Under the pieces are notes generated by a model, which worked only from the letters and a program-made list of their open reading frames with translations, was not told the DNA's origin and made no database searches. A stretch of 34,849 bases of DNA from a virus, in IMG/VR virus record IMGVR_UViG_3300038701_002625, positions 1 through 34,849 of that record. One strand, written 5' to 3'. Below, in pieces: positions 3,299 through 20,180 of the stretch. Numbering within the stretch: the first letter of the stretch is position 1; every line of letters starts with the position of its first letter. Position numbers and translations under genes: made by a program.

Positions 3299-4396
3299 AA
3301 GGAAAAGTTAAATGGCCTGGATTTATTTAGCGGGATTGGGGGAATTACGGAAGCCCTCTCGCCCTGGATTACACCGACGATCTACTGTGAGAACGAGGTC
3401 TACGCTCAATCCGTATTACTTTCGCGTATGCAAAGAGGCGAACTCCCAATTGCACCAATTTGGGACGACATTAAAACATTACCGGCATGGGAACTCCCAG
3501 AAATCGATATTTGCTATGGCGGATTTCCCTGTCAAGACATATCTGTTGCAGGAAATGGCGTCGGCCTGGGAGGCGAGCGAAGCGGATTATTTTTCGAGGT
3601 CATGCGCGTGGCCCAAGAAGCGAGACCCGCTTTCTTATTCCTTGAAAACGTCCCTGCAATCCGAACACGGGGACAGCGAGAAGTTGCAAAAGAATTGGCC
3701 CGCTGTGGGTATGATGCTCGATGGTGTGTTGTATCCGCTAGAGAAGTCGGTGCAAACCATTTGCGAAAGCGATGGTTCTGTCTTGCCTACTCCGACCGCG
3801 ACTACTTATGGAAGCAATCAAGGCGGCTCAGCGGGGCGAGCCGGAAAGAAGAGAGAGTCTTTAGAGTCGATGGCGAAAAACAATTCGTGGCCAACCCCGA
3901 GGGCAACAGAGATACAAGAGACGCCAACAGAGTGGGCGATGCGTTCAAGCAAGACAAAGAACAGAATGTCTGGCCCGAGTTTGACGGTAAAAGCTCAAAT
4001 CCTCGAAGAGATAGGGGACGTAAGCAACTCAACAGCAAGAGAACACTATATGAAAACATGGCCAACACCAACGGCGAGCGACTGCGCGGACAAACCGAGA
4101 CCACCAAGAAAGAAAACAACGAAAGAGAGTGGAAAAATAATGGGTGGACAGAAACCACCCCTTATCAGCGAAGTTGGTGGGAAATTGAACCCGATGTGGG
4201 TCGAGTGGTTAATGGGTTACCGCATCGGCGCGACAGAATCAAATGCCTCGGTAATGCGGTCGTACCTCTCCAGGTTTGTGTCGCGTTCCAACGCCTCATG
4301 GGTATCGAAAGAGGAAATACGGAAAAAGTTATCAACAAAAAAGAGAGCTCGGTTATTACCGAAGTAGAAACATTCAACCAACAGGAGGGCGTGTGA
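3278..4396 (+). CDS. DNA (cytosine-5) methyltransferase
   Basis: A phage C5 methyltransferase that transfers a methyl group from AdoMet to cytosine C5, probably to evade host restriction. Motif I is LDLFSGIGG, motif IV is GGFPCQDIS with the catalytic Cys, motif VI is ENV, motif VIII is RKRWF, and motifs IX-X lie in WWEIEPDVGRVVNGLPHRRD and CLGNAVVP. A variable recognition stretch with VANPEGNRD and MANTNGERLRGQ lies between VIII and IX. The start is uncertain: the frame is open back to a TTG at 3197, with GTGs at 3227 and 3278. I chose 3278, which leaves the usual short N-terminus, but its ribosome site (GGGGG) is poor. A second long ORF runs within it in the +1 frame. Confidence 0.9.
   Translation: MTPHLYNKEKLNGLDLFSGIGGITEALSPWITPTIYCENEVYAQSVLLSRMQRGELPIAPIWDDIKTLPAWELPEIDICYGGFPCQDISVAGNGVGLGGERSGLFFEVMRVAQEARPAFLFLENVPAIRTRGQREVAKELARCGYDARWCVVSAREVGANHLRKRWFCLAYSDRDYLWKQSRRLSGASRKEERVFRVDGEKQFVANPEGNRDTRDANRVGDAFKQDKEQNVWPEFDGKSSNPRRDRGRKQLNSKRTLYENMANTNGERLRGQTETTKKENNEREWKNNGWTETTPYQRSWWEIEPDVGRVVNGLPHRRDRIKCLGNAVVPLQVCVAFQRLMGIERGNTEKVINKKESSVITEVETFNQQEGV
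3312..4367 (+). CDS. Overprinted +1-frame ORF within the methyltransferase gene
   Basis: 351 codons lie wholly inside the methyltransferase gene in the +1 frame. The ATG is preceded by AAGGA (3300-3304) at good spacing, better than any site for the methyltransferase itself. The product has LPTPTA, SWPTPRATE, WPTPTASD, NWPAVGMMLDGVLYPLE and, at the end, GKLNPMWVEWLMGYRIG. From memory these match the pattern (TPTAsD... LNPxWVEWLMGfP) of phage proteins that are often annotated on their own as hypothetical or methylase-related. The same bases code the essential motif IX region in the other frame. It may be a genuine overprinted gene, or an open shadow frame whose motifs follow from methyltransferase conservation. 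Confidence 0.4.
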   Translation: MAWIYLAGLGELRKPSRPGLHRRSTVRTRSTLNPYYFRVCKEANSQLHQFGTTLKHYRHGNSQKSIFAMADFPVKTYLLQEMASAWEASEADYFSRSCAWPKKRDPLSYSLKTSLQSEHGDSEKLQKNWPAVGMMLDGVLYPLEKSVQTICESDGSVLPTPTATTYGSNQGGSAGRAGKKRESLESMAKNNSWPTPRATEIQETPTEWAMRSSKTKNRMSGPSLTVKAQILEEIGDVSNSTAREHYMKTWPTPTASDCADKPRPPRKKTTKESGKIMGGQKPPLISEVGGKLNPMWVEWLMGYRIGATESNASVMRSYLSRFVSRSNASWVSKEEIRKKLSTKKRARLLPK

Positions 4397-4497
4397 ACGT
4401 AATCAAACTGTTCCCTCCAGATCGCTGGCATGAGGTTGCTCACCATAAGAGGCTTGGTTTTAAACTTCGTGAAATCTTGGAGTGGTTTCAAGAATGA
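4393..4497 (+). CDS. Small hypothetical protein (34 aa)
   Basis: A GTG start at 4393 follows a strong AGGAGGG (4382-4388). The 34-residue product (ending LGFKLREILEWFQE) looks like one or two amphipathic helices and matches nothing I recognise. It overlaps the methyltransferase stop by four bases, and its own stop overlaps the next gene's ATG (ATGA). The strong ribosome site and coupled junctions argue that it is translated; it may mainly carry ribosomes into the zinc-finger regulator. Confidence 0.55.
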   Translation: MNVIKLFPPDRWHEVAHHKRLGFKLREILEWFQE

Positions 4498-5351
4498 AGA
4501 AAAATGGTGTTATTAAAAAATGTGAAAACTGCGGGGTTGGGTTTTATATTCGTCGGTCACATAGCGAGCAAGCGTGTTGCTCAAGAGAGTGTGCATACGC
4601 ATTCAGGGTAAAAAACCATACAGAGAGCAGGGGGTGTCTCGGGTGTGGAAATGAGTTTCTAGCCAGGGTCGGAGATAAATCAATTTACTGCTCAAGGTTG
4701 TGCGCAAACGAGAATAAGTCACGGCAAAAAAAAGAGCTACTGTATAAAAACTGTAAAAGGTGCAATAAGCGCTTTCAGGTAAAACCAAGCCATTTTGAGC
4801 AACGAGTAACATGCAGCAAGGAGTGTATGTATAAGCTCAGATTTGGGGAAAACGTAAATAGGCGAGACCCTCATCCAAAACTTAATGAGATCCTGAGCAA
4901 TAAAAAATTGCACCGTTATATTGAGTTACTCGTAAAGAGACGGATTGAAGAATTTTATTCACTAGACATAGTGCTTACTGAAGACATTATGCAGGAATAT
5001 TTCCTGCAGCTCCTAAAAGGGAATAGCACTTACATTGAAAATATTACTAACTACTGCATAAATAAAGAGATCAAGAAGGGGATTACACGAAAAAGCGAGT
5101 GTGATTTTTCATTTGATACGTATGATGTGGTGGAATATGCGAAAACGACATACGACAACACGAGTAACGATGAATATGTAAAAAAAATAGGCGAAGTCGC
5201 AGCGTCCCTGACTCCAAATGAGTTTAAGTTTTTAGTCTTATCTATAAAGGGATTTTGTAAACAAGATATCATTCGAGAGCTGCGCAATAGGTACGATACA
5301 ACCTCAGGTCAACTCCGACAAATCTCCGATAAGATAAGGAAGGCAATATGA
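4494..5351 (+). CDS. Zinc-finger protein with sigma-factor-like C-terminus
   Basis: A 285-residue protein. The first ~115 residues hold three Cys4-type modules: CENC...CCSREC, CLGC...CSRLC and CKRC...CSKEC, like MYM/TRASH-type zinc fingers. The rest resembles a small sigma-70-like protein: LTEDIMQEYFLQLLKGN matches region 2 style, and SLTPNEFKFLVLSIKGF with a C-terminal helical pair resembles region 4. The likely role is transcription control of phage genes, through RNA polymerase or DNA, but this is inference from weak patterns. ATG 4494 is chosen over 4482 because it makes an ATGA coupling with the upstream gene. The stop overlaps the next start. Confidence 0.65.
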   Translation: MKKNGVIKKCENCGVGFYIRRSHSEQACCSRECAYAFRVKNHTESRGCLGCGNEFLARVGDKSIYCSRLCANENKSRQKKELLYKNCKRCNKRFQVKPSHFEQRVTCSKECMYKLRFGENVNRRDPHPKLNEILSNKKLHRYIELLVKRRIEEFYSLDIVLTEDIMQEYFLQLLKGNSTYIENITNYCINKEIKKGITRKSECDFSFDTYDVVEYAKTTYDNTSNDEYVKKIGEVAASLTPNEFKFLVLSIKGFCKQDIIRELRNRYDTTSGQLRQISDKIRKAI

Positions 5352-5751: not shown

Positions 5752-6135
5752 ATGAATAAAACAGAGACAATGACATCTAGAGGATTAACTTCTGAAACGG
5801 TCTACATGACATTATCAGACTTACTATTTCACTTAAGATCAAAAGAAGATCAGATGGGTGTCTATAATTTTTGCCGTAAGTTTAATATAGATCGTAGTAA
5901 GCACGCGAGCATTAGTGAAAAGTTAGAAGATACATATTTCCTTAACTTCAAGGGCAGAATTAACAGCTTGAAAAATGGTTATGAGGCGTACAAATCAAAA
6001 GAGTTCCACTCTGATAATATCGCAGCATCGGACTGGTGCTATTGCTTAGTCGATGAAAAAACAGGGTTTCGTGCGCCAACTTCAATAGGCGCGGCAGAAG
6101 AGCTTGCAAAATTAAGAGCAAAGACTAACCAATGA
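5752..6135 (+). CDS. Hypothetical early protein
   Basis: 127 residues, unrecognised. It starts MNKTETMTSRGLTSETVYMT, is mainly helical with charged segments, and ends SIGAAEELAKLRAKTNQ. GGAG (5739-5742) precedes the ATG. It is soluble-looking, with no signal peptide or membrane segment. It sits among small early genes, so it may be a host-takeover or accessory protein, without evidence for a specific role. Confidence 0.65.
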   Translation: MNKTETMTSRGLTSETVYMTLSDLLFHLRSKEDQMGVYNFCRKFNIDRSKHASISEKLEDTYFLNFKGRINSLKNGYEAYKSKEFHSDNIAASDWCYCLVDEKTGFRAPTSIGAAEELAKLRAKTNQ

Positions 6136-6160
6136 TCGAACTTAGGATAGTGAGGGTAAG

Positions 6161-6349
6161 ATGACGATTAGAAAAAGCGGTTTATGGTGCGATATCTGCA
6201 ATAAGCCAATTTTAAGAGGGGAATGGTGGAATGCTTTGATTAACGGATCTCATGGACACTCTTGTCAGGAGTGTAAAGATCGCTATGAAAAAGTGAAGTT
6301 TTTTTCAGACCTCCCACTTAGCGAGGATGAGATAGATGAAAACAGTTAA
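6161..6349 (+). CDS. Small zinc-ribbon-like protein
   Basis: 62 residues with CDIC (near residue 10) and SCQEC (near 36) separated by GEWWNALINGSHGHS, a four-Cys arrangement typical of a treble-clef or zinc-ribbon knuckle. The C-terminus is acidic (LPLSEDEIDENS). The function is unknown. The next small ORF starts inside its last codons. Confidence 0.65.
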   Translation: MTIRKSGLWCDICNKPILRGEWWNALINGSHGHSCQECKDRYEKVKFFSDLPLSEDEIDENS

Positions 6350-6509
6350 AGTACACAATGGACGATCTAAGCATATCCATTTCTTTAATTATATATCTTT
6401 CTATTTTTGCAATTACCTTAAGAATAAAACTGATGAATATTGGGAAGGTTTCAATCGGAAACGAGTATTAAAAATTGGGAAGCTCACTATTTGGACGAGA
6501 GCGAGATAG
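6336..6509 (+). CDS. Small hypothetical protein (57 aa), overlapping
   Basis: ATG at 6336, 14 bp inside the preceding gene and in another frame, to TAG at 6507. GAGGATGAG supplies a possible ribosome site. The product is basic and aromatic-rich (HIHFFNYISFYFCNYLKNK), with no recognised domain. It would fill an otherwise empty 170-bp gap, which is the main reason to accept it. Confidence 0.45.
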   Translation: MKTVKVHNGRSKHIHFFNYISFYFCNYLKNKTDEYWEGFNRKRVLKIGKLTIWTRAR

Positions 6510-6522
6510 ATAAGGAGGAAGA

Positions 6523-6711
6523 ATGAATAAAGCACTCAGGGTAAATTTTCGGGTATGGACATATCGGTGGAATATCGAACCTTGGAACTGTCGTAAAAAT
6601 TTAAAGGCTTGGATATGGCTACCTCTAATATTGATAACATTCTCTATTTACAGAAAAAGCATATGGGACAACGGCCCCAAGGCTGCCGCTCAAGGGAAGG
6701 GAAATGAGTAA
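6523..6711 (+). CDS. Small protein with a hydrophobic segment
   Basis: 62 residues after a near-perfect AAGGAGGAA ribosome site. WIWLPLILITFSIY (about residues 30-43) could be a short membrane-associated segment in an otherwise basic, Trp-rich protein. The family is unknown. The last 8 bp overlap the next start. Small membrane-active early proteins are common in phages, but no specific role is visible. Confidence 0.55.
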   Translation: MNKALRVNFRVWTYRWNIEPWNCRKNLKAWIWLPLILITFSIYRKSIWDNGPKAAAQGKGNE

Positions 6712-7000
6712 ATTTGAAAACCTGACAGGTGCTACCTTTGGCAAACTAAAAGTTCTTGAAAGAACCAATAATTTTGAAGGCGTTTCGGATTCAAGGGCCC
6801 AGTATGTCTGCCAATGTAAGTGCGGCAATAAAGAAAAAGTTGTTGCTCGTTATCTAAAACGTGGAGATAAAAAAGCATGCATCATGTGCACGCCAAAAGG
6901 CACACCCAAGAGCGACCTTCATTTAAAAGTAATTAAATTAGAAAACCGAATTAAACATATTGAAAACCTTTTAAATTTAACCACCCAGGAGAGTGAATGA
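6704..7000 (+). CDS. Phage zinc-binding DNA-binding-like protein
   Basis: 98 residues. NLTGATFGKLKVLERT then YVCQCKCGNKEKVVARYLKRG and ACIMC form the pattern I associate with small phage proteins (tGxxFGxLxVl... C.CxCGn... C), often found alone or joined to HNH or AP2-type domains. The Cys residues probably bind zinc and the module probably contacts DNA. The C-terminus (LKVIKLENRIKHIENLLNL) is a short coiled coil, suggesting a dimer. It overlaps both neighbours. Confidence 0.65.
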   Translation: MSKFENLTGATFGKLKVLERTNNFEGVSDSRAQYVCQCKCGNKEKVVARYLKRGDKKACIMCTPKGTPKSDLHLKVIKLENRIKHIENLLNLTTQESE

Positions 7001-7335
7001 AGTTTAGAAAAAAACCAGTGGAGATTAAGGCGCATAGGTGGTTCAGGAATGGAGATCATCCAAGAGATGAATGTAGAGTCATTACACCCGCACATGGTGA
7101 CGGCGAACCATTTTTATCCGAAGGAAAGATTGTAAGATATTTTCGGAGACCAGATATTTCTGGTGAGTCTGTCTGTCCCCATTGCCAATTTATTTATCAG
7201 CAGCATGGTTGGATAGATACTCTCGAGGGGGGACATGATGTTTGTCCAGGCGACTGGATAATTGAAGGTGTTGAGGGGGAGTTTTACCCGTGTAAACCTA
7301 GAATTTTTGAAAAGACTTATGAGCTAGTTAAATAA
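6997..7335 (+). CDS. Conserved phage hypothetical (PGDWIIEGVxGEFYPCKP family)
   Basis: 112 residues of a widespread phage family of unknown function, recognised by MKFRKKPVEIKAHRW at the start and CPGDWIIEGVEGEFYPCKP plus FEKTYELV at the end. A CPHC pair in the middle may bind metal. The start overlaps the preceding gene by 4 bp (ATGA). It is typically found among early or accessory genes. Confidence 0.8.
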   Translation: MKFRKKPVEIKAHRWFRNGDHPRDECRVITPAHGDGEPFLSEGKIVRYFRRPDISGESVCPHCQFIYQQHGWIDTLEGGHDVCPGDWIIEGVEGEFYPCKPRIFEKTYELVK

Positions 7336-7393
7336 AACACACAACACAACCAGTACGGTTAAGACTTCAGTAGGAGGTTATGGAAGATGAGAG

Positions 7394-8110
7394 ATGGAGA
7401 TTACGATTACGAAATGGACAGAATACAATCCAAGGAAAGACTTAAAGTCAATGCCATGGTTTCGGGTTGAGTCAGATATTGGTTTCAGTAGAAAACTATT
7501 TGGCATTCCTGCTGAAGGGCGATGGTTGTGGATTTTCCTTCTCTCCTCATGCGCAAGAGAGCAGAAAGAAAGTGTTACCCTGGAGCACGATTATATTGAG
7601 CACCACACAGGAATTTCTTACGAAAAAATAGATGAATATCTGCAACACTTTAAAAATAAAGGACTCGTACAGGTTGCGAACGAATCCGATCGGATTACGG
7701 ACGAATCCGTACCTAACATAACAGAACAGAACGAACAGAACGAACAGAACGAACAAGCTAAAGCTTCCACGGAATTAGAAAAATCTAATTCACGTGGCGC
7801 AATCAATGAGCTTTCAGGTGATTCTGATATTGAATCAATTTTAAATTCGGTCTCTCATACCGCTCAACGCACATGGATCAAAAGCTATGGTGCAGATTGG
7901 GTTAAAGCTGAAACCCTGAAAGCGATCGCATGGATGGAGGTCAATCCCCAGAAAAAACCAAAAAAGAATTTTGGAAGCTTTCTCGGGAGATGGTTTGCAA
8001 GAGGCTGGGAAACTCACAGGAAGACAATTCCCAGTAATAGGCAGAGCTTCGCACAACAGAACCAGGATAACTTACTTAGAATTATACAGGAGTGTGAAAA
8101 TGCGAATTAA
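7394..8110 (+). CDS. Replication initiator / replisome-organiser-like protein
   Basis: 238 residues. The N-terminal ~95 residues (KWTEYNPRKDLKSMPWFRVE, then WLWIFLLSSCA and KIDEYLQHFKNKGLVQV) match winged-helix phage replication initiators of the replisome-organiser type. A low-complexity linker (NEQ repeats) follows, then a C-terminal helical domain ending in the GSFLGRWFARGWE region. Such proteins bind an origin, often inside their own gene, and recruit a loader; iterons, a palindrome and a strong stem lie in the linker-coding DNA here. The start ATG is one of three ATGs spaced 7 bp apart in three frames. GGAAG (7382-7386) serves this one. Confidence 0.75.
   Translation: MEITITKWTEYNPRKDLKSMPWFRVESDIGFSRKLFGIPAEGRWLWIFLLSSCAREQKESVTLEHDYIEHHTGISYEKIDEYLQHFKNKGLVQVANESDRITDESVPNITEQNEQNEQNEQAKASTELEKSNSRGAINELSGDSDIESILNSVSHTAQRTWIKSYGADWVKAETLKAIAWMEVNPQKKPKKNFGSFLGRWFARGWETHRKTIPSNRQSFAQQNQDNLLRIIQECENAN
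7680..7797. other. Putative replication origin inside the initiator gene
   Basis: Within 120 bp are two copies of ACGAATCCG (7680-7688, 7701-7709), a perfect 14-bp palindrome AATCCGATCGGATT (7683-7696), three tandem copies of GAACAGAAC (7724-7750), and a hairpin with CCACGGAATTAGA (7767-7779) pairing to 7784-7797 around an AAAA loop with one bulged A. Repeats plus a dyad inside an initiator gene is the lambda-O arrangement. Confidence 0.5.
7724..7750 (+). repeat. Three tandem 9-bp repeats (NEQ-coding)
   Basis: GAACAGAAC occurs three times without mismatch, followed by a partial copy (GAACA). It codes the Asn-Glu-Gln-rich linker of the replication protein and may also act as origin iterons. 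Confidence 0.85.
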
Positions 8111-8645
8111 AAAAGCAATTGCGCAGTATTGTATCGCGAAAGGAATAAGTACCACCGAGGATCGGATTAATATCACGGCCACCTATCTGCAAAAAAAGAA
8201 CGAATTCTCGGAAGATCAAATTCTTTGGGCCATAGCTCAATTATTTGAAACTTCAAAATATTTCCCAGATGTATCGGATGTTTTAAAGCTACTCAGGCCA
8301 TCGCAGGAATCAATCGCAGATGAGGGCAATTTGATCGCTGGTGAGATTATCGACTCGCTCTCAAGGTTTGGTCAGTATCAAGCAAAAGAAGCGCGAGAAA
8401 GCCTAGGGGAGACCGCGTGGTATGTGGTTGAAAGATTCGGCGGTTGGACAACGGTTTGCAATTTAACTTACTCGGAATTAGGTACGGCCAGGGCGCAGAT
8501 GAGGCGGCTTGCAGAAGCATCCGTCAGGGCGCGTGAGAGCGGCGGTGTGCTCGATTTTAGTCGTCGGGCAAGCAAAGATCTTCGGCAATTAGAAAAAATG
8601 AATTTTGACAATATCTTAAGCCTTGTAGGCGAGGAGGAAAAATGA
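8100..8645 (+). CDS. Replication accessory / helicase-loader-like protein
   Basis: 181 residues, helical. It starts MRIKKAIAQYCIAKGIST, contains QILWAIAQLFETSKYFPDVS, and ends with a Gly-Trp motif (FGGWTTVCNLTYSELGTAR) and a basic tail. The YFPD(v/i)s pattern and the 'rFGGW' ending resemble phage replication proteins encoded after an initiator, often loaders of the replicative helicase. The frame opens at 7971, but the start at 8100 has GGAG (8090-8093) and overlaps the initiator's stop, matching neighbouring gene spacing. No Walker motif is present, so it is not an ATPase-type loader. Confidence 0.6.
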   Translation: MRIKKAIAQYCIAKGISTTEDRINITATYLQKKNEFSEDQILWAIAQLFETSKYFPDVSDVLKLLRPSQESIADEGNLIAGEIIDSLSRFGQYQAKEARESLGETAWYVVERFGGWTTVCNLTYSELGTARAQMRRLAEASVRARESGGVLDFSRRASKDLRQLEKMNFDNILSLVGEEEK

Positions 8646-9307: not shown

Positions 9308-9696
9308 TGGATCTGGTCGATATTGCTCTTTTATATTTTGGAACCCCTTATGTATGGGGCGGAAATAAACCAGAGGAGGGGATGGACTGCTCGGGTTTTG
9401 TTTGTGAGGTCTTGAGGTCGGTCGGGCATATTGACGAAGCCGATAGAAGCGCGCAGATGCTTTATGATGAGTTATCAAAAAGAGAAGGTGTTAGGTCACA
9501 ACTTGGTAGGAACTCAATTCTATTTTTTGGCAAATCAAGAACAGAGATCACTCACATCGCAATCGGCATGAGTTACAAGCAACTTATCGAAAGCGGCGGC
9601 GAAGGAAGGGTTTCCACTACTCACGGCTATGTGAGGATACGACCAGTAAATTACCGAAACGATCTTGTGGCAGTTTTAAAATTGGGGGACGTGTGA
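9307..9696 (+). CDS. NlpC/P60 cysteine peptidase
   Basis: 129 residues, a bare NlpC/P60 domain: YVWGGNKPEEGMDCSGFV carries the catalytic Cys28 and EITHIAIGMS the catalytic His83, with a possible third polar residue near 106 (THGYVRI). The family hydrolyses D-Glu-diaminopimelate or related peptide bonds in peptidoglycan. No signal peptide is visible, so export needs a holin or similar. It starts at the stop of the transglycosylase gene and likely works with it as a two-enzyme endolysin. Similar domains also occur in siphovirus tail tips, but this copy is far from the tail genes. Confidence 0.9.
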   Translation: MDLVDIALLYFGTPYVWGGNKPEEGMDCSGFVCEVLRSVGHIDEADRSAQMLYDELSKREGVRSQLGRNSILFFGKSRTEITHIAIGMSYKQLIESGGEGRVSTTHGYVRIRPVNYRNDLVAVLKLGDV

Positions 9697-10253
9697 AAAG
9701 AGAAATATGGAAGAGTGTGGTTGGGTACGAAGGATATTACGAAGTGTCTAGTTACGGAGAAGTGAAATCAGTAAAACGTACAATAACCCGAAGTAATGGC
9801 TCAATCCTTTCAATTAAAGAAAAACTGTTAAAGAAAGATTTTACTCGCCATGGGTACTTCAGAGTGAAGCTGTCTAGGAAAAATAACGCCAAGTCTTTCT
9901 TGGTTCATAGACTTGTAGCGGACGCATTTATCACAAATGGAAATAACTTCCCTTTTGTAAACCATAAGGACCTGGACAAAACTAACAATTCTTCTCAGAA
10001 TTTGGAATGGTGTACCCATCTTCAAAATATTCGGCACGCAGTTGAAAAGAATAGATACGGAAAATTAACGCCACACCAAGTAATGCAAATTAAAGATTTA
10101 TTGAAGCTTCACAGGCAGAATATACTTAACAAGCAGCAAGGTCCATTTCCGCAGCGGCGGCTGGCAGAAATGTTCAACGTAACCCAGACAACGATTAAAA
10201 ATATAAACAGAGGTTATACATATAGAAGGGAGGGAGGCGATGCGCAAACCTAG
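9693..10253 (+). CDS. NUMOD4/HNH endonuclease with C-terminal HTH
   Basis: 186 residues. NUMOD4 at the N-terminus (EIWKSVVGYEGYYEVSSYGE), HNH_3-type core (FLVHRLVADAFI, FVNHKDLDKTNNSSQNLEWC, HLQNIRHA), then a C-terminal helix-turn-helix (RRLAEMFNVTQTTIKNINRG). This is a free-standing homing-endonuclease type that cuts DNA lacking the gene and spreads it. The GTG start overlaps the NlpC/P60 stop. A related but shorter gene lies at 12284. No intron is evident around it. Confidence 0.9.
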   Translation: MKREIWKSVVGYEGYYEVSSYGEVKSVKRTITRSNGSILSIKEKLLKKDFTRHGYFRVKLSRKNNAKSFLVHRLVADAFITNGNNFPFVNHKDLDKTNNSSQNLEWCTHLQNIRHAVEKNRYGKLTPHQVMQIKDLLKLHRQNILNKQQGPFPQRRLAEMFNVTQTTIKNINRGYTYRREGGDAQT

Positions 10254-12283: not shown

Positions 12284-12730
12284 ATGAACACACAACAATC
12301 CTGCGAATTAATCGAGGAAAAATCACAATCGGAAATTGAACTATGGAAGTCTATACCGGACTTCCCTCACTATAAAATATCTTCTCTCGGTAGAGTATTT
12401 AATGAAAGAAACGGGAAGTATAAAAAATCACACCACGACCACAAGGGATATAAGCGACTCAGATTAATTGATGGAAGTAAAGGGTCCACTAAAAAAATTC
12501 ATCGACTCGTGGCCCAAGCGTTTATTGCTAATTACTCAAAAGACCTTCAGGTAAATCATAAAAACTGCATCAAGGATGATAATCGCGTTTCTAATTTAGA
12601 AATGTGTAACCAGTCGGAGAATACAAAGCACGCATGGAAAAATAATAGAATGAAACTGTTGCCCCGTGATGCTGCTGGAAGGTTTGTTAAAGACAGCATC
12701 GCCAAGAAACGAATCGAGGGGGGCGTATGA
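12284..12730 (+). CDS. NUMOD4/HNH homing endonuclease
   Basis: 148 residues. NUMOD4 (ELWKSIPDFPHYKISSLGRV) then HNH_3 core (KKIHRLVAQAFIANY, LQVNHKNCIKDDNRVSNLEM and CNQSENTKHAWKNN). It lacks the C-terminal HTH of the homologue at 9693, ending in a basic tail. The two share domain order and the HRLVAxAFI...VNHK core, so they are separate members of one family. The ribosome site is inside a hairpin. Its stop overlaps the RusA start by 4 bp. Confidence 0.88.
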   Translation: MNTQQSCELIEEKSQSEIELWKSIPDFPHYKISSLGRVFNERNGKYKKSHHDHKGYKRLRLIDGSKGSTKKIHRLVAQAFIANYSKDLQVNHKNCIKDDNRVSNLEMCNQSENTKHAWKNNRMKLLPRDAAGRFVKDSIAKKRIEGGV

Positions 12731-19337: not shown

Positions 19338-20180
19338 ATGGTGGATCAGGTACACACGGCATCGTCTGAACTTGGGGTTATCGTTCCAGAGATGTGGAGC
19401 GCCAAGAGTTACGATGTTTTAAAAAATAGATTACTTTTCAAAGATTCAATAGATCATAGTTATGAGGGTGAGATCTCAGACCTTGGTGACAAGGTTAACA
19501 TTCACACCGTGCCAGAGTTTGACGAGGCATCTGAGCTTGCAGAGGACGCTGCTGCCGACGCTGACGCGGTAACAGTAACAAGTCAACAGTTAGTTATCAA
19601 CAAGAGAGTCGTTAAAGATTTTATCTTAACAAAAAGAGCAATGATTCAATCTATCGATAAGATGGACAAACTTAGGGATCATGCGGCTTATGCGATCATG
19701 AAGAAGATGGATAATACCATTATTTCTACAATCGTACCATCTGCCTCTTCTCCCGATCATGACATTTCTTTTGATTCAGCAACAACTCTCGCCTTGGCGG
19801 ATATCTTGGAAGCTAAAGAGCTTTTAGATGCTCAAAATGTACCTGTTGATAATCGAAAATGTAGAGCAGGATCGGCGCAGTTTAACGATGTTTTCAATAT
19901 TTCTGGATACACAAGTAAAGATTTTATTGCATCTGGATCACCCCTTTCTACAGGTATGATCGATTTCCCATTGGCCGGATTTGACTTTGACTGGTCTAAC
20001 CAACTTGGAAATGTTGCCTATTTCTTTCACCCAAGCTTTATGACTCTCGCTGTACAGGAGCAAATGGCAGTAGAGGTATTCAATTTAGGTGCAGAAGGTA
20101 AGCGTGCGTTGCGAGTGAACACAGACCTTTTATACGGGCTAGAGCAGCTCGATGACAAGCGTCTCGTAAAAGTATCTTAA
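19338..20180 (+). CDS. Major capsid protein
   Basis: 280 residues after a strong TTAGGAGTTAAA. ELGVIVPEMWSAKSYDVLKN at the N-terminus, EISDLGDKVNIHTVPEFDEA, a long helix (LVINKRVVKDFILTKRAMI), and GMIDFPLAGFDFDWSNQLGN later fit an HK97-fold coat protein of the P22/T5-like group with separate scaffold. It forms the shell; the high-quality ribosome site agrees with high expression. Confidence 0.88.
   Translation: MVDQVHTASSELGVIVPEMWSAKSYDVLKNRLLFKDSIDHSYEGEISDLGDKVNIHTVPEFDEASELAEDAAADADAVTVTSQQLVINKRVVKDFILTKRAMIQSIDKMDKLRDHAAYAIMKKMDNTIISTIVPSASSPDHDISFDSATTLALADILEAKELLDAQNVPVDNRKCRAGSAQFNDVFNISGYTSKDFIASGSPLSTGMIDFPLAGFDFDWSNQLGNVAYFFHPSFMTLAVQEQMAVEVFNLGAEGKRALRVNTDLLYGLEQLDDKRLVKVS

Follow-up and report, generated by a model that had tools for sequence, protein, structure and literature searches.

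The window, that is the whole stretch of DNA analysed here, is the 34,849-base IMG/VR virus record IMGVR_UViG_3300038701_002625. It contains an ORF coding for a protein of 238 aa (P0001), which is followed by a loader-like gene. In the middle of the ORF, in the part coding for a linker (0.40–0.56 of the gene length), a first-pass annotation had pointed out an iteron pair, a 14-bp palindrome, a 9-bp tandem repeat and a stem with an AAAA loop, all lying within 118 bp (7680–7797). We could verify all four features (Table 1). The two copies of ACGAATCCG are the cores of longer direct repeats, and the palindrome AATCCGATCGGATT is one of three perfect 14-bp palindromes in the whole window. A second dyad, TACGGA-CGAA-TCCGTA at 7695–7710, is absent from the first-pass annotation. 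It lies inside iteron-like unit 2, where dyad symmetry is clear; in unit 1 the symmetry is imperfect. The tandem array comprises 4.4 copies according to TRF, with CAGAACGAA occurring three times exactly, and the coding strand is free of T over 7720–7758. The stem reads CCACG-GAATTAGA-AAAA-TCTAATTC-(A)-CGTGG, with 8 perfect pairs, a bulge of 1 nt and 5 further pairs. The tract adjoining the iteron-like units is 60% AT, compared to a genome mean of 58% and to 72% at the equivalent position in lambda. A tentative candidate for an unwinding element is found beyond the hairpin, approximately 110 bp farther along than this tract; its AT content is among the best 6% of all 40-nt stretches in the window.

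Table 1. Features of the initiator locus and related stems (positions in the window unless another locus is named).
Feature	Position	Strand	Basis or remark
Replication initiator gene P0001, 238 aa	7394–8110	+	ORF, PHROG 186, model, synteny
Region coding for the N-terminal domain (winged helix, presumed to bind the origin)	7394–7678	+	L019 similarity, model
Iteron-like unit 1, TTGCGAACGAATCCGATCGGA	7674–7694		15-bp direct repeat (7674–7688), 87% identical to unit 2 (7695–7709), period 21
ACGAATCCG copies	7680–7688 and 7701–7709		No other exact occurrence in the window
Perfect 14-bp palindrome AATCCGATCGGATT	7683–7696		Spans junction of iteron-like units 1 and 2
Iteron-like unit 2, TTACGGACGAATCCGTACCTA	7695–7715		Holds hyphenated dyad
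Low-complexity tract, 9-bp tandem AACAGAACG	7715–7755	+	Encodes NEQNEQNEQ
Inverted repeat/hairpin	7767–7797		8 bp + bulge + 5 bp, AAAA loop
All-A-loop 8-bp stem	7772–7791		Initiator linker
C-terminal helical domain coding region, presumed helicase/loader recruitment	7814–8110	+	L023 similarity
Candidate unwinding element (tentative)	7821–7860		72% AT over 40 bp
Loader-like gene, phrog_10105/9804	8100–8645	+	Family without functional annotation; overlaps initiator 3' end; relatives adjoin initiators
L096 stem GCGACCGA-AAAA-TCGGTCGC	L096, 3484–3503		Initiator linker
L019 stem GTCCATTT-AAA-AAATGGAC	L019, 8059–8077		Initiator linker

The initiator and the loader-like gene

P0001 matched PHROG 186 (“DnaD-like helicase loader”) with E = 4e-6 in an alignment that includes the linker, and PHROG 277 (“O-like”) with E = 0.0085 in a match covering the linker and some of the C-terminus. 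Pfam and NCBIfam gave no match above cut-off, no solved structure in the PDB was matched significantly, tblastn against phage records found no match, and whole-protein searches of phages, IMG/VR and GTDB genomes returned no relatives. Membership in the lambda O family was not borne out, as there was just the linker-driven PHROG 277 match and none by tblastn. Likewise an origin of the DnaA type or of the Rep-plasmid iteron type was rejected, because P0001 matched none of the RepA, Rep_3 and DnaA families in Pfam or NCBIfam. A single-sequence structure model with a mean pLDDT of 54 predicts a winged-helix-like helix-strand-helix-helix arrangement for residues 40–95, where block means reach 75–84 within residues 41–90, followed by a disordered linker (residues 96–146) and a C-terminal part made of helices, a topology that fits initiators of the DnaD/replisome-organiser type. 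Among viral folds the best four matches were a Replication protein C, two replisome organizers and one replication initiator, all of them weak (E between 0.006 and 0.041), and no fold match reached E ≤ 0.001.

More information came from single domains. The N-terminal domain is 33% identical to the N-terminus of the initiator in the related locus L019 (E = 2.5e-13), and the C-terminal domain is approximately 40% identical to the C-terminus of the gene in the initiator position of L023 (E = 1e-23). Both loci are among the relatives reached via the terminase; more genes in the initiator position were reached via the loader-like gene. Searches with alignments of the N- and C-terminal parts of P0001 returned only loci already known, and for no domain of the initiator did the collections searched yield a relative above about 40% identity. 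Each half of P0001 is thus closest to the initiator of a different phage. This pattern of similarities shows domain shuffling, with the linker that carries the cluster as the exchange point.

The profile of the loader-like gene did not match any solved structure, G39P included, and unlike lambda P the gene matches no annotated loader family. Used alone as a query it found no relatives; these came via the terminase together with small alignments. A final loader scan led to the same contigs only, and no relatives of the terminase were found in bacterial genomes. The gene is 38% identical to the gene following the initiator-position gene in L023. Its relatives adjoin genes that match replication initiation families in L089 (1e-34), in L094 (2e-26; O-like 1e-16) and, weakly, in L092 (3e-4); in Aeromonas phage vB_AsaM-56 the neighbour is annotated as a replication initiation protein. 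To judge from weak homology and from synteny, P0001 is a diverged replication initiator, for which the context is stronger than the direct searches.

The cluster under coding constraint and in related initiators

When the region 7670–7810 was folded as single-stranded DNA we obtained z = -3.97, and none of 200 dinucleotide shuffles folded equally well. We then permuted synonymous codons, holding the protein fixed. In the linker region, which for this test was picked after the cluster had been seen, the fold reached p = 0.001 and the 14-bp palindrome p = 0.0015, and palindrome and 8-bp stem occurred together in none of 2000 synonymous draws. Permuting the codons of the whole gene (n = 10,000) produced a 14-bp palindrome in 3.3% and an 8-bp stem in 8.1% of the permutations, so that the stem alone is unremarkable. 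Taken singly each feature of the cluster is modest: the best single dyad is unexceptional (p = 0.16), and the two 9-mers ACGAATCCG alone are weak evidence. The whole cluster is stronger. Palindrome and 8-bp stem fell within 120 bp of each other in only 10 of the 10,000 whole-gene permutations (0.1%), and the cluster is the only spot in the 34.8-kb window that joins the two within this distance. The z-value of the fold against synonymous permutation is -5.2 at the linker, the extreme of the initiator gene. Because the combination is so rare with the protein held fixed, the cluster is not explained by what the gene encodes.

These numbers bear on an alternative in which the DNA itself has no function and the linker has been expanded by slippage, with palindrome and hairpin being accidental or left over from that process. 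We consider this unlikely, since the tandem array includes neither the palindrome nor the second dyad nor the stem, synonymous permutation seldom brings them together and, as described below, relatives show the same layout in sequences of their own. The tandem array itself fits this alternative: its 9-bp unit codes for NEQ, a recent duplication would be expected to leave identical codons, and most relatives possess low-complexity tandem linkers. The features of the cluster are also modest one by one. One argument of the first-pass annotation has to be qualified. The low-complexity linker that it described is present, but as a sign of selection on the DNA it does not serve, being general in this class of proteins and open to an origin by slippage.

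For comparison we assembled a panel of 28–29 initiator genes, in which lambda O served as the positive control; the named phages represented include those of Vibrio, Staphylococcus, Streptococcus, Lactobacillus, Bacteroides and Burkholderia. The strongest dyad or inverted repeat was located at 0.33–0.60 of the gene length, the linker-coding middle, in 21 of 28 initiators, as compared to 34% in synonymous permutations (p = 1e-5; p = 5e-5 when leaving out the window and lambda); since some members of the panel are related, these p-values are somewhat optimistic. Among control ORFs from the same loci the strongest dyad lay mid-gene in 8 of 40. Tests for dyads upstream and downstream of the T-poor tract gave p = 0.001 and 0.002, respectively, for the rest of the panel combined. 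Individually, only 4 of 27 genes were below 0.05 on each side; one reason for this small number is that the T-poor tract was picked automatically and often wrongly.

Many linkers of the panel contain purine-rich or T-poor tandem tracts with stem-loops farther on, and in many of them dyads are repeated at a spacing of 21–24 bp (Staphylococcus phage 77, phiPYB5, H6/1, L094). L090 and L092, which belong to the same module, show tandem repeats only and no notable dyad. Folding gene by gene yielded no significant linker hairpin in L023, L090, L092 and L019, and a universal strong linker hairpin was rejected on these grounds. An exact requirement for a tract lacking T and then an 8-bp stem proved too strict, as apart from the window it recovered a single case, which was unrelated. 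A comparison of the repeats in related phages had been proposed along with the initial observation. In this comparison the window's own repeat sequences are absent from the relatives, but most of these have repeats or dyads of their own at the same place and in this way retain the plan. The layout is shared across relatives, lambda O included.

Some further observations were made in the panel. In the metagenomic phage L094 (IMGVR 3300049844_000180) the initiator linker contains, at 3382–3535, four repeats with dyad symmetry around CTGCCCCTANGGGCAG, spaced by ~22 bp and followed by AT-rich DNA; by its sequence this region would be a strong lambda-type origin. The Aeromonas phages L106 and L108 carry direct repeats of 44–45 bp (CCCCGCAGATTCTGCACCACACCCCCGCAGAAGTTGC) in the initiator linker, at 0.34–0.45 of the gene. 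In phage 2_D05 (L107) the initiator gene is annotated as two pieces.

Comparison with known embedded origins and the predicted initiation

Origins embedded in the initiator gene have been established for lambda (PMC5043065, PMC7466680) and SPP1 (PMC6316719), and the origin of 80alpha was inferred genetically to be embedded in ORF20 (PMC5499656). Like the cluster, the lambda origin (iterons 1–4 of record NC_001416) lies midway along the initiator gene (gene O), and a loader gene (P in lambda, the loader-like gene here) comes after it. Its elements also follow the same order: dyad iterons at 20–24 bp spacing, a T-poor low-complexity tract and an inverted repeat. The lambda iterons lie at about 0.39–0.48 of gene O. 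Using one script for both, we found in lambda the iteron dyad, a T-poor tract at 0.47–0.51 and then GTCAGAGAATTC-TGGC-GAATCCTCTGAC, and in the window the palindrome, a T-poor tract at 0.45–0.51 and then the AAAA hairpin. The inverted repeat lies ~46 bp after iteron 4 in lambda and ~57 bp after unit 2 in the window. In order and in gene position the cluster thus matches the annotated ori-lambda, and the likeness to lambda O that had been noticed at first sight is borne out. Lambda differs in having four iterons instead of two and an AT-rich tract where the window's is not AT-rich, in the sequences of iterons and inverted repeat, and in the initiator itself, O not being detectably homologous to P0001 beyond the linker-driven E = 0.0085. 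According to the passage in PMC7466680 that cites Dodson 1986 and Wickner 1987, two iterons and the AT-rich region are enough for lambda in vitro.

Other systems show a similar mixture. In SPP1, oriL is located in gene 38 (G38P), contains direct repeats and is followed by a loader-type gene (G39P) (PMC6316719); SPP1 differs by a second origin, oriR, and by a clear AT-rich unwinding element, and the likeness was drawn from the published description. Staphylococcus phage 77 (L118) shares linker dyads with a period of 24 bp (TCAATACCCCTATTGA) and a further stem-loop downstream. In this phage and relatives such as 80alpha (ORF20), however, the iterons are more numerous and clearer, and a DnaC-type loader follows. 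The initiator gene of L094 is directly followed by a gene of the same loader family and has a dyad array in its linker. It differs in its four strong dyads leading into AT-rich DNA, in its strong matches to O-like and replication initiation families and in having no detectable homology to P0001.

Considering the initiator-like protein, the adjacent loader-like gene, the synonymous-codon tests, the panel of relatives and the lambda O control, we find the initial reading of the cluster as an origin supported: very probably the phage starts replication here, at an origin that sits within its own initiator gene where the linker is encoded. Several points speak against it. There are only two iteron-like units, one of them with an imperfect dyad, the adjacent tract is hardly richer in AT than the genome, and a switch in GC skew is missing. 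The initiator assignment draws on weak scores and on synteny. The skew had been suggested as a check; it is positive almost throughout and does not switch at 7.7 kb, which is uninformative because nearly all genes of the phage run one way.

Palindromes within an early operon are typically operators. The dyads might accordingly serve the initiator or another regulator in repressing transcription of the operon or the gene, with no role as an origin. Scanning for promoters around the cluster we found no sites above chance, and in relatives, lambda among them, the origin is located mid-gene as well; we consider a role solely as an operator very unlikely. The two roles are compatible with each other. 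It is likewise conceivable, at an extremely low probability, that the hairpin acts in the mRNA as an attenuator, a processing site or a translational pause. As RNA, too, the inverted repeat would form a hairpin, and its stem of 13 pairs is strong (computed for the DNA strand); yet no T-run follows the stem, scans for terminators and for Rfam families found nothing at the cluster, and palindrome and iterons would be left unexplained.

For the cluster as origin we infer the following course of initiation. The N-terminal domain of the initiator, probably as dimers, would bind the two dyad repeats spaced by 21 bp (7674–7715). The initiator, together with negative supercoiling from early transcription, would open the strand-biased tract beside these repeats and AT-rich DNA close by. 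The C-terminal domain of the initiator and the product of the next gene would bring in the replicative helicase of the host. The inverted repeat (7767–7797) might bound the opened region or fold on the exposed strand. This kind of origin is ordinary and well known; the phage is highly diverged, and the cluster is thus a diverged new example. Its interest lies mainly in a clean prediction and in being part of a comparative pattern: it provides a concrete origin prediction for a phage lineage without a close cultured relative, and the panel shows that origins can well be read directly off metagenomic sequence in the linker of phage initiator genes, even if neither iteron nor protein sequence is shared.

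Stem-loops with all-A loops and other elements of the window

In 1.05 Mb of related loci we counted 69 perfect stems of at least 8 bp with loops of 3–5 nt. Four of these fell inside the eight initiator genes covered by this count, each of them in a linker. Stems with a loop consisting of A only occurred four times in the 1.05 Mb, three of them in initiator linkers (window, L096 and L019) with unrelated stem sequences, a pattern that was spotted after the fact. The other initiators of the panel have loops other than all-A. One might suppose that a stem-loop behind the low-complexity tract is a general, sequence-independent third element of such origins, present in this group in a special form with an 8-bp stem and an all-A loop of 3–4 nt; we regard this as doubtful. 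If true, the all-A stem could be a structure-specific site, e.g. for strand choice, helicase loading or priming, and it could be carried along while the iterons change with the initiator.

Apart from the cluster, the window has a single perfect 8-bp stem closed by a short loop, TGCAGGAA-TAT-TTCCTGCA at 4990–5008. This stem is located in the ORF 4482–5351, which matches the HNH endonuclease PHROG 1271. Two related HNH/NUMOD-like genes at 9693–10253 and 12284–12730, with similar genes in L002, L077, L083 and L084, are probable homing endonucleases. L002 shares with the window the terminase (72% identity), the portal (67%) and the product of 19338–20180 (73%). In L002, at 5998–7383 and following, no relative of P0001 or of the loader-like gene was found, and the contig starts near there; this pattern suggests an exchange of the replication module. 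Near the left edge of the window a tandem repeat of 63 bp (8–419, 6.6 copies), which in one plus-strand frame reads as a repeat of the type SLEGAPKEVGG...NNNQLT, is perhaps the end of a gene for a repeat-rich protein cut by the window.
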